DNA of 45,454 nt from Chloroflexota bacterium (GTDB lineage Bacteria > Chloroflexota > Dehalococcoidia > UBA2247 > RBG-13-53-26): positions 1 through 45,454 of the forward strand of contig VGOE01000013.1 of the NCBI GenBank assembly GCA_016876035.1. The letters run 5' to 3'. Position numbers and translations under genes: made by a program. Shown here in pieces: positions 27,137-33,365 of the stretch; the first letter of the stretch is position 1, and every line of letters begins with the position of its first letter. The notes under the pieces were generated by a model. The model saw only the letters and a list, made by a program, of their open reading frames with translations, did not search any database and was not told the origin of the DNA.

Positions 27137-28063
27137 TTGAACCGCCCAGCAACTCATACGCCTGTTCTGCTTCGCGAATCCGTCCAACTGCTGAACATCC
27201 GGCCTGGTGGGCATTACGTCGACTGCACTGTCGGGACGGGCGGTCATGCCCTGGCTATTCTGGAGAGCAGCACGCCAGAAGGACAGCTATTAGGCATTGA
27301 TCTAGATCACAAAGCCCTGGAGGTAGCAGCCAGAAGGTTCGAAGGCTACAGCAAGAATGTGGTCCTGGTCAATGACAACTTCACACATCTGGAGAGCATC
27401 TGCCACAGGTTTCAGTTTCACCCAGTGGATGGCATCCTGTTTGACTTGGGAATGTCCTGGTTACAGCTAGAGGATCCGAGCCGAGGGTTCAGCTTTCGAT
27501 TTGAAGGCCCTCTCGATATGCGTTTTGGTACAACGCAGTCCGCCACGGCAGCCAGCCTGGTAAATCGACTTTCGGAAACCGAACTGGCCAGACTCTTGGA
27601 AAGATATGGCGAAGAGCGCCGAGGCCGCCTGATAGCCAGGGAAATTGTTGCTGGCCGTCCTTTCAACACCACCCTTCAATTGGTCAGCGCCATACAGCAG
27701 GTTCTGGGAAGAAGTGGTAGGATCCACCCAGCCACCAGGACCTTCCAGGCGCTGCGCATCGCCGTCAACCAGGAGTTCTCAAACCTGGAGGAGGCCTTGA
27801 GCCAGACTGTCAGGCTTCTCTCTCCCGGAGGCAGACTGGCAGTTATCAGTTACCATTCCCTGGAAGACCGCTTGGTCAAGCGATTCATGCATCAGGAATC
27901 GACGGATTGCCTCTGCCCCCCGAAGGTTCCAGTTTGCAAGTGTGGGCATACCGCTACCCTCAGACTTGTCAACCGAAAGCCCATCACACCTTCTCGGGAT
28001 GAAAAGGAAGCAAACCCACACAGCCGCAGCGCTAAAATGAGGGTGGCTGAGTGCTTGCAATGA
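27137..28063 (+). CDS. rsmH: 16S rRNA m4C1402 methyltransferase RsmH (MraW)
   Basis: A 308-residue RsmH, which methylates C1402 in the ribosomal P site using SAM. The start THTPVLLRESVQLLN, the SAM loop VDCTVGTGGHALAIL, DGILFDLGMSWLQLEDPSRGFSF and SYHSLEDRLVKRFM are diagnostic. TTG is the start codon. In most bacteria rsmH heads the division and cell-wall (dcw) cluster and is followed by ftsL, ftsI and mur genes. Here it is followed by an opposed DUF5343 gene and then ftsZ paralogs, so the cluster is reduced. Confidence 0.95.
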   Translation: MNRPATHTPVLLRESVQLLNIRPGGHYVDCTVGTGGHALAILESSTPEGQLLGIDLDHKALEVAARRFEGYSKNVVLVNDNFTHLESICHRFQFHPVDGILFDLGMSWLQLEDPSRGFSFRFEGPLDMRFGTTQSATAASLVNRLSETELARLLERYGEERRGRLIAREIVAGRPFNTTLQLVSAIQQVLGRSGRIHPATRTFQALRIAVNQEFSNLEEALSQTVRLLSPGGRLAVISYHSLEDRLVKRFMHQESTDCLCPPKVPVCKCGHTATLRLVNRKPITPSRDEKEANPHSRSAKMRVAECLQ

Positions 28064-28115: not shown

Positions 28116-28892
28116 TTAGCCACGAATAGAGCCGCCAGAGAAGCTCCTGGCTACCATTTCTTTCAAAGAATCAAACCATTTGAGCTTCAATGCTTCCGAC
28201 CATTGGGCATCAAAAGAGGGGAACTTCTGTATCAAAAGCACGAGGTAACCGAGACGGGCGAACCATTCCTCACGCACCTCCTTGGGCCAATTAGGATCAA
28301 AAGAGGGCAACTTGCTAGCCAGGTCCCATTCTGCTGTTTCCGGTTTGTTTGGCTCATTCCTAGGCGAAGAGTAAGACACCCTTCTTCTTCGGGGTGAAAT
28401 CGCCTTTGAAGCATTTTTTTGTGCCGCACCTACTCTCGACCTGTTCGCCAAGCTGGGAGAAAGGGGAATACCAGCGTCTTTGGCCAGAGCCAGAAAGAAA
28501 GACACACACTTATGCCCGACGTTGTTCTCCGCTCCCCATCTTCGGAAACACTCCTCAACCTGGCCCAGTGTAGCATGTCCGACATCCAAATCCCCTAACA
28601 CCGGCTGGTAAGCCGCCCTGACTATGTCTCCTAGCACAGCGGCGCGATCCTTCCCCCCTGCATTAACCAGGCTGACCATCTCCTGGGTCGGGCAACTGTC
28701 GTCACTCATCAAACCCAGAAAAAGAAGCGTTCCCTTGGCAGTCAGAGCAGCGCTATCTGAGAATCCCAGATCCTTGAAGTAGCTCCGGTCGAACTGCGTC
28801 GGTGTATTTTCCTGGACTGCTTGCAATAGCCGTTGCCAAGCAGAATAGGTCAGGTAAGGTGGCAGACGGTTGCTATCTCGTGATTTCATCAT
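28116..28892 (-). CDS. DUF5343-like protein with C-terminal PSFD..W repeats
   Basis: A protein of about 258 residues with unknown function. The first 150 residues look like DUF5343 as I remember it: LPPYLTYSAWQRLLQAV, FDRSYFKDLGFSDSAALTAK, LLFLGLMSDD, then SFFLALAKDAGIPLSPSL. After a basic linker come two copies of a segment near LPSFDPNWPKEVREEWFARL and FPSFDAQWSEALKLKWFDSL. The strong promoter at 28929-28957 puts transcription start near 28922, which rules out the in-frame start at 28937 and favours ATG 28892 or 28889. It faces away from ftsZ. Confidence 0.65.
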   Translation of the reverse strand: MMKSRDSNRLPPYLTYSAWQRLLQAVQENTPTQFDRSYFKDLGFSDSAALTAKGTLLFLGLMSDDSCPTQEMVSLVNAGGKDRAAVLGDIVRAAYQPVLGDLDVGHATLGQVEECFRRWGAENNVGHKCVSFFLALAKDAGIPLSPSLANRSRVGAAQKNASKAISPRRRRVSYSSPRNEPNKPETAEWDLASKLPSFDPNWPKEVREEWFARLGYLVLLIQKFPSFDAQWSEALKLKWFDSLKEMVARSFSGGSIRG

Positions 28893-28928
28893 CTCATCTT
28901 CCCCATGCGTGTTAATTTTCAATTCAAC

Positions 28929-28957
28929 ATTATACAACAGATGAAATGGAATGTCAA
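28929..28957 (-). promoter_or_regulatory. Perfect-consensus sigma70 promoter of the DUF5343 gene
   Basis: On the minus strand TTGACA (28957-28952) and TATAAT (28934-28929) are separated by exactly 17 bases. This is the best promoter I found in the window. Confidence 0.8.
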
Positions 28958-29085: not shown

Positions 29086-29115
29086 TTGACAGTGCAAAAT
29101 TCGCCGTTCTAAAAT
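29086..29115 (+). promoter_or_regulatory. Putative sigma70 promoter of the ftsZ cluster
   Basis: TTGACA (29086-29091) and TAAAAT (29110-29115) with an 18-base spacer. The first ftsZ starts at 29202, so the leader is about 80 bases. Confidence 0.65.
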
Positions 29116-29201: not shown

Positions 29202-30230
29202 GTGAGCGAGAGATCAAGTGGAAGACCACCGGCAACAATCAAGGTGATCGGTGTGGGTGGAGGAGGGTGCAATGCTGTGAGACGGATGCTGACCAAGGCA
29301 ACGCCAGGGGTCGAGTACATAGTGTGCAACACTGACATAAAGTCACTCGATTCCTGTCCGAACACTGTCTTGTCAGTGCAGATAGGTGAGCATCTGACTC
29401 GCGGCTTTGGGGCGGGAGGCGATGTCGGAGTCGGAGCGCGGGCTGCAGAGGAGGGGCGCTTTCTATTAAAGAGATCCCTAAAAGACGCCGAACTGGTGTT
29501 CATTACTGCCGGCATGGGCGGCGGCACGGGCACAGGGGCAGCCCCCGTAGTAGCTCAGATAGCTAAGGAAAGCCGTGCCCTGGTAATCGGCGTAGTCACC
29601 ACGCCCTTCTCCTTTGAGGGGAAGAAGCGCTTTCAGTTAGCTCTGGGTGGCATCCGCCGACTCAGACAAGAAGTAGACAATCTTATTGTTATTCACAATG
29701 ATCGTCTGCTGCAGTTCGTAGAGCAGAATGCCCCCACGACCCACGCCTTCGCCGTAGCCGACGAGGCTGTTTCTGAGGGCATCCTGGCCGTCTCCCACCT
29801 CGTCAATGTCCCTGGAGAGATCAATGTTGACCTGGCTGATGTCAAGACAGTGATGAGCATTCCGGGCGGTGCGCTCATGGCCATCGGCAGAGGGGACGGC
29901 TGCCGCTATCCAGCTCAGGAGGCAGCCGAACAGGCCATTTCTAACCCCTTGCTAGACATCGATGTCAAGGGTGCCAAAGGGATCCTGTTCAACTTCAGTG
30001 GCGGCCCAGATCTGACTCTGGGAGAAGTCAACGACGCGGCCAATCTGATTGCCAGGGAAGTCGATCCTGAGGCCATCATGTTCTTTGGTATGTCGAGCCC
30101 CAGTGAGGAACTGAGGGATACAGTTAAGCTCACGCTGATAGCTACTGGTATTCATCCGCCTCTGCCCAGCAACTGGCTATCCGAAATGGGTGAGACTATC
30201 AGAGAAGTAGTGATGGGACGCAGGAGATAG
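29202..30230 (+). CDS. ftsZ: FtsZ-like tubulin GTPase, paralog 1
   Basis: A 342-residue FtsZ family protein. The N-terminal G-box GVGGGGCNAVRRM (about 17-29), the tubulin signature GMGGGTGTGAAP (GGGTGTG at 106-112) and the T7 loop NVDLAD (208-213) are intact, so GTP binding and polymer-coupled hydrolysis are expected. Differences from ordinary FtsZ include NTDIKSL for NTDAQAL, GFGAGGDV for GLGAGGNP and IHNDRLL for IPNDRLL. It ends soon after the globular domain in NWLSEMGETIREVVMGRRR, without the long linker and the conserved tail that binds FtsA, ZipA or SepF. Start GTG has AGGAGG five bases upstream. It is first in a tandem of three. Confidence 0.93.
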   Translation: MSERSSGRPPATIKVIGVGGGGCNAVRRMLTKATPGVEYIVCNTDIKSLDSCPNTVLSVQIGEHLTRGFGAGGDVGVGARAAEEGRFLLKRSLKDAELVFITAGMGGGTGTGAAPVVAQIAKESRALVIGVVTTPFSFEGKKRFQLALGGIRRLRQEVDNLIVIHNDRLLQFVEQNAPTTHAFAVADEAVSEGILAVSHLVNVPGEINVDLADVKTVMSIPGGALMAIGRGDGCRYPAQEAAEQAISNPLLDIDVKGAKGILFNFSGGPDLTLGEVNDAANLIAREVDPEAIMFFGMSSPSEELRDTVKLTLIATGIHPPLPSNWLSEMGETIREVVMGRRR

Positions 30231-30273: not shown

Positions 30274-30465
30274 ATGTCTATGCTTCTATCGTGGATCAAT
30301 GCAGCAGCAGGGATAGTGCTCTTCTATGCCATCTCGGACATATCCAATTGGAAGATATTCGATTCACCCGGTTCTAAGATACTGCCCTTCATCCTAGGCA
30401 TAGTACTATTCTTGAATGCCGTATATTTGGCTGTAGGCAAAGAGGGATTGCTACGCCGCAGCTAA
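30274..30465 (+). CDS. Small two-helix membrane protein between ftsZ paralogs
   Basis: A 63-residue protein of unknown function with two likely membrane helices (about 5-22 and 36-54) around a polar turn SNWKIFDSPGSK, ending in RRS. AAAGGAG lies nine bases before its ATG, 43 bases after the ftsZ-1 stop, so it should be translated with ftsZ-1. Given that the FtsZ paralogs lack a visible membrane-tether peptide, a role as membrane partner is a reasonable but untested inference. Confidence 0.65.
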   Translation: MSMLLSWINAAAGIVLFYAISDISNWKIFDSPGSKILPFILGIVLFLNAVYLAVGKEGLLRRS

Positions 30466-30754
30466 TCTGCCCCCGGCGTACAGCTTTCGGAAAGCATGGT
30501 TGCCGATCTCTGAGGCCACCTCAATGAGGTGATTAAGACAGCACCTTGTCGCTAGTCTCACCAAGGAGGCCTGGAACGGCAGAGTGAATTGAAGGGCTTA
30601 GTACCCTCGCCCGTCGCTTTCCTACGCTGCTGAAAGCTGATAGCCTAGGGCTTTTGGGCGGAGGTTGTCTTTTTGGGGGGAGGCCTTCCCCCTCCCCCCA
30701 AACCATCGAGCCATAGTTATCATAAAAATTTTGCTAATGAAAGGAGGAAGAGGA
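30466..30754 (+). ncRNA. Long structured leader of ftsZ paralog 2
   Basis: These 289 bases contain no gene but many stems. A possible three-way junction at 30513-30572 has outer stem AGGCC/GGCCT and inner hairpins ACCTC-AAT-GAGGT and AGAC/GTCT. Further stems are AGGG-CTTAGTA-CCCT, GCTTTC/GAAAGC and AGCC-TAG-GGCT. A 12-bp stem at 30672-30683/30691-30702 has a G6/C6 core. The ribosome site AAAGGAGG follows about 40 bases later. I do not recognise a known RNA family. Confidence 0.4.
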
Positions 30755-31813
30755 ATGGTGGAGACAATGATCCGTATCGGAAACTCCAGAATGATGGATC
30801 GCACCAGACCACCAGCGTTGATCAAAGTCATCGGCGTGGGTGGTGGTGGCTGCAATACTGTTCGCCGCATGATACGCAGCCAGCGGATCCCCGGCGTCGA
30901 GTGCGTCGTTGCCAATACAGATATCAAATCCCTGGACATGTCACAGGGGGCAGTAGCACTGCAAATAGGTGAGCATCTCACTCATGGCTTCGGGGCAGGA
31001 GGAGATGTCAAAGTTGGCAAGCAGGCAGCCGAGGAAGGACTGTTCCTACTGAAGAGGGTAGTCAAAGATGCTGAACTAATATTCATTACGGTAGGCATGG
31101 GTGGAGGTACAGGCACAGGAGCAGCTCCGGTTGTAGCCAGGATAGCTAAGGACAGTGGGGCCCTAGTCCTGGCTGTTGTGACGACGCCTTTCTCCTTTGA
31201 AGGCAGAAAGCGACTGGATGTTGCCTTAGCAGGTATCCAGCGCCTCAAAGCCGAAGTCGATAATATGATCGTCGTCCACAATGACCGTCTTCTCCAGTAC
31301 TCGGACCATAACGCCAGTATTTCCCAAGCCTTCGCCATGGCCGATGAGGTAGTTAGCGAGGGAATTACGAGCGTGTCCCAGCTTATCAATGTCCCCGGTG
31401 AGATAAACGTTGATCTGGCTGATGTAAAGATGGTGATGAGCCTGCCTGGCACAGCCATCATGGCCATGGGTCAGGGCGAGGGCGCACATCCAGCTATGGA
31501 TGCAGCACAACAAGCCATATCCAACCCTCTGATAGATGTCACCATAAAAGGTGCCCGCGGGCTTCTCATCAGCTTCTCAGGTGGACCAGACCTCAGCCTG
31601 GGTGAGGTAACTGAGGCAGCTACCCTTATTGCCCGAGAAGCCGACCCCAACTGCAACTTCAAGTTTGGTCTAGCTTCTCTGACAGAAGACCTTCTGGGCA
31701 AGTCTAAGGTTAACGTCATTGCCACAGGGATCAAGTCAGGAAGCACATCACGGGGGTGGCTGGCTGACCTGGGAGATAAGATTACGGAGGCCACGAACCG
31801 CCGCGGGCGCTAA
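30755..31813 (+). CDS. ftsZ: FtsZ-like tubulin GTPase, paralog 2
   Basis: A 352-residue FtsZ family protein with G-box GVGGGGCNTVRRM, GGGTGTG at 116-122 and T7 loop NVDLAD (218-223). It shares NTDIKSL, GFGAGGDV and VVHNDRLL with paralog 1, so the copies form one divergent group. The C-terminus is again short, ending GWLADLGDKITEATNRRGR, which resembles the end of paralog 1 (aromatic Trp, then a helix, then arginines). ATG 30755 is chosen for the AAAGGAGGAAGAGGA upstream; the frame is open back to 30665 without a ribosome site. Confidence 0.93.
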   Translation: MVETMIRIGNSRMMDRTRPPALIKVIGVGGGGCNTVRRMIRSQRIPGVECVVANTDIKSLDMSQGAVALQIGEHLTHGFGAGGDVKVGKQAAEEGLFLLKRVVKDAELIFITVGMGGGTGTGAAPVVARIAKDSGALVLAVVTTPFSFEGRKRLDVALAGIQRLKAEVDNMIVVHNDRLLQYSDHNASISQAFAMADEVVSEGITSVSQLINVPGEINVDLADVKMVMSLPGTAIMAMGQGEGAHPAMDAAQQAISNPLIDVTIKGARGLLISFSGGPDLSLGEVTEAATLIAREADPNCNFKFGLASLTEDLLGKSKVNVIATGIKSGSTSRGWLADLGDKITEATNRRGR

Positions 31814-32024
31814 GCCGCAGGCACGCTAGAAGGAGCGTGAAAGCGGGGAAAATCTTGAGCAGCACCGCACCTCCTACAGCCGAACCGACTTAGAAAGACG
31901 AACCGGGAAGCAGTGGCAGGTGCCTGGATACTGCGAACGTTGCAGCCGAAGCGCAGAGGCGGGCAAGCCGTCTGTCATCGGCCCTAGAAGATAGGGCTGA
32001 TCAACTTAAAGAGGGAGGCACATC
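31814..32024 (+). ncRNA. Long structured leader of ftsZ paralog 3
   Basis: A 211-base gap rich in consecutive hairpins. They are CACGCT-AGAAGG-AGCGTG (31822-31839), nested GCAGT(GGCA-GG-TGCC)ACTGC (31910-31934) and CAGAGGC/GCC-G-TCTG (31954-31974). A 10-bp stem with a GAAGA loop follows at 31977-32001, ten bases before the ribosome site GAGGGAGG. Purine-rich single strands (GGGGAAAATC, TAGAAAGACG) separate them, as in structured regulatory RNAs. I could not match it to a known riboswitch. Confidence 0.4.
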
Positions 32025-33113
32025 ATGATGGTAAGTGAAATAGGACAGAGGGTTAGGCCAGGAGACTTTGGTAGAGTCGTAGCGCACATAAAGGTCATAG
32101 GGGTTGGTGGTGGCGGTTGCAATACCGTTCGCCGCATGATGCAGAAGCAGGCCGTCCCAGGAGTGGAGCATATTGTCGTTAACACTGATATCAAATCTCT
32201 CGGGCTGGCGTCTAGTGTCCGTGCTATCCAGCTGGGTTCACGCCTGACTCAAGGATGCGGAGCGGGTGGAGATATCAAGGTCGGTGAATTGGCAGCCAAG
32301 GAAAGTCGTGCAGAATTGCAGAAGGCAATTAGAGGGGCTGAACTGGTATTCATCGCAGCTGGCATGGGCGGAGGCACAGGCACCGGCTCAGCTCCAGTGG
32401 TAGCTGAAATAGCCAAACAGAGCGGCGCCTTAGTAATTGCCGTGGTTACCACGCCCTTCTCTTTTGAAGGCAATAGAAGATGTGAAATTGCCATCACAGG
32501 CTTACGCCGCCTTATGGAGAGAGTGAATAGCACTGTCATCGTGCCCAATGACCACCTGCTGCGCCTAGGTGATCATGACGTACCTATCCAGAGGGCCTTC
32601 GCCGCAGCCGACCACGTGGTCGCAGAGGGTATCATCGCCATATCTGAGCTGGTCAACGTCCCAGGGGAGATAAACGTGGATCTGGCTGATGTCAGAAGGG
32701 TAATGAGCATTCCCGGGATAGCCCTTATGGCTACTGGGTGGGGTGAAGGCGTCCATGCAGCAGAGCAGGCCGCAGAAGAGGTCATCTTCGAACCTCTGCT
32801 TGATAGTCATGTAAATGGCGCTAAGGGCATCCTCTTCTCCTTTTCAGGCGGTCCTGACTTAACCCTTAGCGGGGTGGAAAAGGCAGCTAATCTCATTTCC
32901 AAACAGGTTGATCCTCACGCTATTATCTTCTTCGGAATGAATCTACCTAGCGAGGAATTGATAGGCAAAGTCAAAATCAACCTGGTAGCTACGGGGATAA
33001 AGCCAGCACCGGACAACAACTGGTTCCTCCGAGTGAAACATGGACTGAGACAGGCACAGGCGATACAACTTGGCAGACCTGTCAGGCTGGGCATGGCCAC
33101 GGCCACGGGATAG
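32025..33113 (+). CDS. ftsZ: FtsZ-like tubulin GTPase, paralog 3
   Basis: A 362-residue FtsZ family protein, the most divergent of the three. It has GVGGGGCNTVRRM, GGGTGTGSAP (GGGTGTG at 115-121) and T7 loop NVDLAD (217-222), so catalysis should be possible. It reads GCGAGGDI where the others have GFGAGGDV, and VPNDHLL where they have HNDRLL. The C-terminus PAPDNNWFLRVKHGLRQ keeps the Trp-plus-basic-helix theme and continues to a tail GMATATG that is not the classical FtsA-binding peptide. Start ATG 32025 (or 32028) has GAGGGAGG six bases upstream. Confidence 0.92.
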   Translation: MMVSEIGQRVRPGDFGRVVAHIKVIGVGGGGCNTVRRMMQKQAVPGVEHIVVNTDIKSLGLASSVRAIQLGSRLTQGCGAGGDIKVGELAAKESRAELQKAIRGAELVFIAAGMGGGTGTGSAPVVAEIAKQSGALVIAVVTTPFSFEGNRRCEIAITGLRRLMERVNSTVIVPNDHLLRLGDHDVPIQRAFAAADHVVAEGIIAISELVNVPGEINVDLADVRRVMSIPGIALMATGWGEGVHAAEQAAEEVIFEPLLDSHVNGAKGILFSFSGGPDLTLSGVEKAANLISKQVDPHAIIFFGMNLPSEELIGKVKINLVATGIKPAPDNNWFLRVKHGLRQAQAIQLGRPVRLGMATATG

Positions 33114-33140
33114 ATAGTGGGTATGTCGGAGGCATAACAC

Positions 33141-33365
33141 GTGCGACGCACAGCGCGAGGTACAGCAAGACATACAGGACGGCCTGCGGCCAGACTGCTT
33201 AAGACTGTTGGGGTAGTTCTGGTTCTACTCCCGGAACCCATAACCACGGGAGTGGGCGTAGGCCTTATTTTCGGGGCGCTTGCCCTCTCGGGCAAGCGCC
33301 GCCGACCAATCCCGTCTTCCGGGGTCATTATACGACACGGATCCTTAGCACCCCTAAGGGCATGA
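33141..33365 (+). CDS. Small basic membrane protein after ftsZ paralog 3
   Basis: A 74-residue frame with GTG start, 27 bases after ftsZ-3, and GGAGG eight bases upstream. It has a basic N-terminus (MRRTARGTARHTGRPAARLL), a hydrophobic stretch of about 28 residues interrupted by LPEPITTG, and a basic end. This suggests one membrane helix or a re-entrant hairpin. Function unknown. An 11-bp perfect hairpin with TCTC loop (33275-33300) lies inside the frame and might also end transcription. Confidence 0.5.
   Translation: MRRTARGTARHTGRPAARLLKTVGVVLVLLPEPITTGVGVGLIFGALALSGKRRRPIPSSGVIIRHGSLAPLRA
33275..33300 (+). repeat. Perfect 11-bp hairpin in the last gene of the ftsZ cluster
   Basis: GGCGCTTGCCC (33275-33285) pairs with 33290-33300 across TCTC. 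There is no T-run after it on either strand, so it is not a standard terminator. It falls inside the small membrane protein frame. Confidence 0.5.

Follow-up and report, generated by a model that had tools for sequence, protein, structure and literature searches.

Small membrane proteins interleaved with tandem ftsZ genes in a wall-less Dehalococcoidia family without detected FtsA

The ftsZ array and its small genes

We analysed a 45,454-nucleotide stretch of DNA (hereafter the window) from a Chloroflexota bacterium of the class Dehalococcoidia (contig VGOE01000013.1). It carries three tandem ftsZ genes, ftsZ1 to ftsZ3, together with two genes for small predicted membrane proteins: smA, which follows ftsZ1, and the gene for a "PEPxTT" hairpin protein, which follows ftsZ3 (Table 1). 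An earlier note on this DNA had proposed both small proteins as membrane tethers of the FtsZ paralogues. Its description of the locus proved accurate: smA starts with an ATG 43 bases past the ftsZ1 stop codon and the hairpin gene with a GTG 27 bases past that of ftsZ3, and each has a good ribosome-binding site upstream (AAAGGAG and GGAGG, respectively). The products of the three ftsZ genes match Pfam Tubulin and FtsZ_C as well as TIGR00065 above cut-off (329-350 bits on TIGR00065, cut-off 295.2), and judged by these matches all three genes are genuine.

Of nine same-family genomes, seven have smA homologues next to ftsZ (E values 1e-17 to 1e-20; best match per relative 53-61% identical). The usual order in these relatives is ftsZ1 - A - B - ftsZ2 - C - ftsZ3 - A' - (B') - a single-helix open reading frame (ORF) of 29-31 residues - PEPxTT hairpin gene, where A, B and C are paralogues within one family and a small-protein copy stands behind each ftsZ. 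The C type forms a separate clade and lies behind ftsZ2, and the A and B types lie behind ftsZ1 and ftsZ3. A search of 393 genomes of the class with a family profile recovered 31 copies (62-73 residues), all 31 inside ftsZ arrays, in eight genomes that hold one to five copies each; no convincing match outside ftsZ arrays was found in these genomes or in a 400-genome sample of the phylum. Among named genomes, the single smA sequence matched nothing and the family alignment matched six metagenome-assembled genomes (MAGs); the named array carriers are Chloroflexi/Dehalococcoidia MAGs such as RBG_13_53_26.

Pairwise ratios of nonsynonymous to synonymous substitution rates (dN/dS) are 0.08-0.28 for smA itself, 0.06-0.28 for A, A', B and C together, and 0.03-0.10 for ftsZ1 and ftsZ3. 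The hairpin gene has homologues in all seven smA-bearing relatives (E values 1e-26 to 1e-31), and so in 8 of 8 array genomes, with dN/dS of 0.11-0.35 among close pairs with unsaturated dS. The smA family is under purifying selection at the protein level, and the smA and hairpin frames are real genes, conserved far above chance; conservation, synteny and dN/dS together rule out spurious ORFs. The tether proposal thus survived the check on conservation and selection of the two frames. The window itself holds a single copy of the family: it lacks smB, smC and the second smA, yet keeps all three FtsZs, and a lenient tblastn search of its gaps recovered no remnants of the three.

Two further observations concern the arrays of relatives. 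The ORF of 29-31 residues (MPSKTDVMVWG..V..MC) downstream of the second smA copy is conserved in seven relatives, with dN/dS of 0.03-0.18, and was not found in the window. In one relative (G009), ftsZ1 has an in-frame TGA, either a sequencing error or the mark of a broken copy.

Structure and novelty of smA

AlphaFold2 modeled smA with helices at residues 2-20 and 32-62 (predicted local distance difference test score, pLDDT, 80.6; predicted template modeling score, pTM, 0.60), in line with the two-helix, 63-residue protein first read from the sequence. The protein is predicted to be a two-helix hairpin with both ends inside the cell. Conservation is concentrated in the helices and the outer loop, not in the cytoplasmic tail: S21, I23 and W26 are invariant in a loop placed outside by the positive-inside rule, polar residues N9 and N48 lie within the helices, and the predicted cytoplasmic C-terminal tail of about 9 residues is the least conserved region (commonest residue 46%, versus 65-69% elsewhere).

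We compared smA with known families. The smA family has nothing above cut-off in Pfam; its closest entry is TctB (the best member reaches an E value of 0.00049; the window protein has 0.0055, with 17.3 bits against a cut-off of 29.1), a similarity that probably reflects general membrane-helix composition. There was no match in NCBIfam, none in the PDB by sequence profile, and none with an E value below 0.001 in a Foldseek search of the PDB, and on these grounds membership of a known family was rejected. The smA family is previously undescribed; we found no report of smA-family or hairpin proteins in a literature search whose coverage largely leaves out subscription journals.

Absence of FtsA and origin of the array FtsZs

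FtsA (PF14450) was matched in 103 of 120 relatives, and in neither the window's own genome, which is 97.7% complete, nor the seven smA-bearing relatives. Within the family, the genomes without detected FtsA are exactly the eight with smA; G003 and G004, same-family genomes without smA, have FtsA adjoining ftsZ. The SepF core domain (PF04472) was matched in 0 of 21 genomes and in 7 of 14 control genomes, and the absence of FtsA and SepF that the earlier note had described for the neighbourhood therefore extends genome-wide. FtsW/RodA was not found in the window's genome, nor the penicillin-binding protein transpeptidase in any of the order's 15 genomes; none of the peptidoglycan genes tested was thus seen in the lineage, which is wall-less. 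The smA family is tied to an FtsA-independent FtsZ system. In wall-less Dehalococcoidia the division and cell wall (dcw) cluster is reduced to mraZ-mraW-ftsA-ftsZ (PMC10608941), and the smA-bearing genomes fit one further step in this reduction.

The FtsZs themselves also differ. The conserved terminal peptide (xPxFLRR type) was present in 93 of 93 FtsA-bearing genomes checked (86 by pattern and 7 variants by eye), and this FtsA-binding peptide is absent from every FtsZ of the eight array genomes. Nearly all array FtsZs end in a segment starting W[LFM] (LF in one). The tails of FtsZ1 and FtsZ2 have hydrophobic moments of 0.57-0.68, above most shuffles, and to the eye array FtsZ tails look like the membrane helices at the C-terminus of FtsA in the class, for example GFFSRVLDWLREFLPQ. 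These features suggest that the tails are mostly amphipathic W-helices like the FtsA membrane helix.

A tree of 56 FtsZs resolved FtsZ1, FtsZ2 and FtsZ3 of the arrays as one clade each (support at least 100/98), and the three group together at 100/99. Along with the FtsZs of G011, G019 and G053 they fall in a deep clade, here called type II, and the FtsA-linked FtsZs, those of G003 and G004 included, fall outside it. This separate placement rules out an ordinary FtsZ that merely lost its terminal peptide. Since the array FtsZs lie in the type II clade, it appears that the ordinary FtsZ disappeared from the family along with FtsA and that the second type was triplicated, the smA proteins apparently arising alongside.

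Type II FtsZ is scattered through Dehalococcoidia (Table 1), and further candidates are stand-alone genes in other families. The assignment has tree support for G011, G019 and G053, and is by profile score for candidates L223-L226, L228 and L229; weaker candidates (e.g. L230 and L233) keep the terminal peptide. No small membrane gene was seen beside type II ftsZ candidates of other families in 15 further loci scanned. At L047 two hydrophobic ORFs lie more than 2 kb from ftsZ, and L083 and L087 show nothing convincing.

Outside the family, G019, G042, G050 and G053 were rejected as FtsA-less: FtsA was probably missed in these genomes, because they keep a terminal peptide and are only 69-80% complete. 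In G037 and G039 neither FtsA nor FtsZ was matched. Besides the array genomes, only f51, another family (G075, G090 and G104) in which FtsA was not found, looks truly FtsA-less. Its FtsZs lack the full terminal peptide and end in RRSFFPWVR, RRSIFPWIR or WRSVFNWIK, and in G075 an apparent decayed terminal peptide (DLPAF) precedes the aromatic-basic end; no small membrane gene adjoins ftsZ in f51. Since these aromatic-basic tails are similar to the RR/KLFF membrane motif of plant FtsZ1, direct FtsZ membrane tails look like a recurrent way around FtsA.

The PEPxTT hairpin protein

The earlier note had left the second small protein as single-helix or hairpin. AlphaFold2 placed short helices at residues 14-29 and 34-49, on either side of a PEP turn; this low-confidence model (pLDDT 59.6) favours the hairpin over the single helix. 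The protein is basic on both sides of the turn and has no Pfam match above cut-off. Its relatives are located between rsmH and ftsA in G071, G115 and G045, which belong to two other families and all have FtsA, and further copies lie away from ftsZ. On this evidence the hairpin protein is an older membrane component of the ftsA-ftsZ region and makes an unconvincing FtsA substitute, which leaves its proposed tether role weak. FtsL is a bitopic protein with a periplasmic coiled coil, and its gene adjoins rsmH in the full dcw cluster. The hairpin relatives occupy the FtsL gene position, whereas the low-confidence model of the hairpin protein is a short basic hairpin rather than a bitopic protein.

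Neighbouring features

Upstream of ftsZ1 lies a candidate sigma70-like promoter, one of 7 promoter-like sites in a consensus scan (mean 3.5 in shuffles), and a sequence scan found no terminator-like site between genes from ftsZ1 up to the hairpin gene. The two results together are consistent with a single operon running from ftsZ1 through the hairpin gene. The DUF5343 gene divergent from ftsZ1 has a counterpart at L223, from a different family, that is likewise divergent to a candidate ftsZ of type II (Pfam matches for both genes), and at L083 a look-alike without a Pfam match occupies the same position.

Table 1. Coordinates of features in the window and at loci of other genomes.
Feature	Locus	Position	Strand	Remarks
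rsmH (mraW)	window	27137..28063	+	remaining dcw-cluster neighbour
DUF5343 gene	window	28116..28937	-	divergent from ftsZ1
Candidate sigma70-like promoter	window	29086..29115	+	TTGACA-18-TAAAAT, 11/12; from consensus scan only
ftsZ1	window	29202..30230	+	342 residues; type II, without conserved terminal peptide; C-terminus WLSEMGETIREVVMGRRR
smA	window	30274..30465	+	63 residues, predicted two-helix membrane protein; family confined to ftsZ arrays of genomes without detected FtsA
ftsZ2	window	30755..31813	+	352 residues counted from the ATG with AAAGGAGGAAG; longer frame possible, start 30665; C-terminus GWLADLGDKITEATNRRGR
ftsZ3	window	32025..33113	+	362 residues; C-terminus WFLRVKHGLRQAQAIQLGRPVRLGMATATG
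PEPxTT hairpin gene	window	33141..33365	+	74 residues, GTG start, both ends basic
Hairpin relative	L113	4017-4385	-	between rsmH and ftsA
Hairpin relative	L114	2320-2688	-	between rsmH and ftsA
Hairpin relative	L115	5151-5495	-	between rsmH and ftsA
Hairpin relative	L116	4813-5154	+	between rsmH and ftsA
29-31 residue ORF	L034	9950-10036	+	example
29-31 residue ORF	L036	10182-10268	+	example
29-31 residue ORF	L037	4769-4855	-	example
29-31 residue ORF	L038	5417-5509	+	example
ftsZ1 with in-frame TGA	L040	8254-9345	-	G009:C338
f51 ftsZ	L088	5814-6908	+	
f51 ftsZ	L089	3062-4144	-	
f51 ftsZ	L090	5477-6562	-	
Type II ftsZ	L047	1810-2838	-	
Type II ftsZ	L083	2349-3461	+	
Type II ftsZ	L087	812-1918	+	
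DUF5343 gene	L223	1994-2746	-	divergent to type II ftsZ candidate
DUF5343 look-alike	L083	1366-2082	-	without Pfam match

Discussion

Our preferred reading, to which we give a probability of about 0.5, is that the array is an FtsA-independent membrane-attachment module for FtsZ in a wall-less Dehalococcoidia family. The lineage would have lost its ordinary FtsZ and the FtsA partner, and would retain three copies of the second FtsZ type. The C-terminal helix of each array FtsZ most likely enters the cytoplasmic face of the membrane directly, as the C-terminal helix of FtsA does, and the smA-family hairpins would be dedicated integral-membrane partners of these FtsZs, most likely providing a site for docking or assembly to which the tails are directed. 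In this view the PEPxTT hairpin protein would stay an older neighbourhood membrane protein and not a replacement for FtsA. We infer tail insertion, smA-FtsZ contact and a role in division from sequence.

Several points weigh against this reading. FtsZ3 tails are more basic and weakly amphipathic, with moments of 0.38-0.52 that fall mostly within the shuffle range, and FtsZ1 tails have an acidic polar face with a net charge of -1 to -2; acidic or weakly amphipathic helices are less typical for membrane targeting. The resemblance of the tails to the FtsA helix was judged by eye. The eight array genomes share one ancestor, and the loss of FtsA there, and with it the correlation between smA and FtsA, therefore counts as one event, not eight. 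Finally, the lineage of the window lost smB, smC and the second smA, so that a one-to-one partnership between smA proteins and FtsZs is not obligatory.

How far smA itself acts as the tether is the main point on which the alternatives differ. In a strict form, which we consider rather unlikely, the W-helix of FtsZ would have no lipid binding of its own and would dock on smA in the way that FtsA, SepF or ZipA receives the usual peptide. The restriction of smA to ftsZ arrays and to genomes without detected FtsA speaks for such docking, as does the placement of a copy behind each ftsZ in relatives, with the C clade behind ftsZ2 and the A and B types behind ftsZ1 and ftsZ3; the acidic FtsZ1 tails, too, would suit protein binding more than lipid binding. 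Against it, smA is predicted to extend only a short tail into the cytoplasm, the region of the protein that is least conserved; the invariant S21, I23 and W26 sit in the predicted outside loop; the window encodes three FtsZs but a single smA; and f51 lost FtsA without any smA. Given how short and variable this tail is, a tethering role is no less probable for the FtsZ tails than for smA. Thus, of the earlier tether proposal, smA stands as a conserved membrane component linked to FtsZ, one that occurs in ftsZ arrays and nowhere else and in exactly those genomes of the family without detected FtsA; its part as the tether proper is undercut by the FtsA-like helices that the FtsZs themselves carry, by the nature of its tail and by its single copy in the window. 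The broader claim that the smA family is a new class of FtsZ anchor, one that took over from FtsA in receiving the redesigned FtsZ tails of a bacterial lineage without walls, we offer as tentative.

Alternatively, smA could work at the division site on the membrane or envelope itself (through curvature, oligomeric patches or a link to the surface layer) and not bind FtsZ at all, being co-transcribed for shared timing. The conservation of the helices and outer loop instead of the cytoplasmic tail would fit, the position of the polar N9 and N48 within the helices hints at helix packing or oligomers, and no peptidoglycan machinery was seen that could drive constriction. We nonetheless regard this role as improbable, since it leaves unexplained both the presence of smA exactly where FtsA is missing and its one-by-one placement after the ftsZ paralogues in relatives. 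That the small genes are unrelated to FtsZ function, as operon hitchhikers or regulators of ftsZ expression, would agree with a copy number varying from 1 to 5, with the loss of most copies in the window, and with a link between smA and division that is predicted from sequence. This account seems very improbable to us in the face of purifying selection on the protein, the location of all 31 copies in ftsZ arrays, and the co-occurrence with FtsA loss.

FtsZ rings are generally held to need an adaptor (FtsA, SepF or ZipA) to reach the membrane, and to our knowledge the adaptor-free exceptions are few: plastid FtsZ1 and some Mycoplasma. A bacterial lineage in which no tested adaptor was found, with three differently tailed FtsZs and a co-occurring, undescribed family of small proteins, points to another means by which the division ring may be attached to the membrane. 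The array would offer a compact module, ftsZ plus a 63-codon gene, for division free of FtsA and wall, useful for studying how division machinery evolved and for reconstituting minimal cells.

Comparison with known systems

FtsA, the usual FtsZ tether in the class, has the role that smA would fill, and its C-terminal amphipathic helix resembles the tails of the array FtsZs; smA, in contrast, lacks an actin fold and consists of 63 residues in two helices. SepF and ZipA are division proteins that associate with the membrane and bind FtsZ at its C-terminus, the role proposed for smA. ZipA has a single N-terminal transmembrane helix and a large C-terminal FtsZ-binding domain. smA does not have this plan, as two helices fill nearly its whole chain, and it is too small for either that domain or the SepF core, with no Pfam match to SepF.

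Like the reduced dcw cluster of wall-less relatives (PMC10608941), the window keeps rsmH/mraW near ftsZ, and the peptidoglycan genes tested were not found. It differs in having no detected ftsA and in the three type II ftsZ genes and small membrane genes that replace the ordinary ftsZ. Odinarchaeota have dual FtsZ1 and FtsZ2, and archaeal FtsZ2 uses SepF (PMC12583498). Both systems pair paralogous FtsZs with different modes of membrane attachment, which for the array are predicted; the array genomes, however, have no detected SepF, and their extra membrane proteins are predicted integral hairpins.

The closest parallels are FtsZs that bind the membrane themselves. Plant chloroplast FtsZ1 does so through a C-terminal RR/KLFF motif (PMC11285052), and FtsZ tails that attach directly to the membrane have been reported from Mycoplasma as well as chloroplasts (cited in PMC12583498). 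As in the array, these FtsZs have no FtsA or SepF route and carry a short hydrophobic-basic or amphipathic C-terminal segment, and Mycoplasma shares with the array lineage a wall-less cell. What sets the array apart is its three tandem type II FtsZ paralogues, with different W-helix tails predicted to bind the membrane, and the two-helix membrane protein family interleaved among them.

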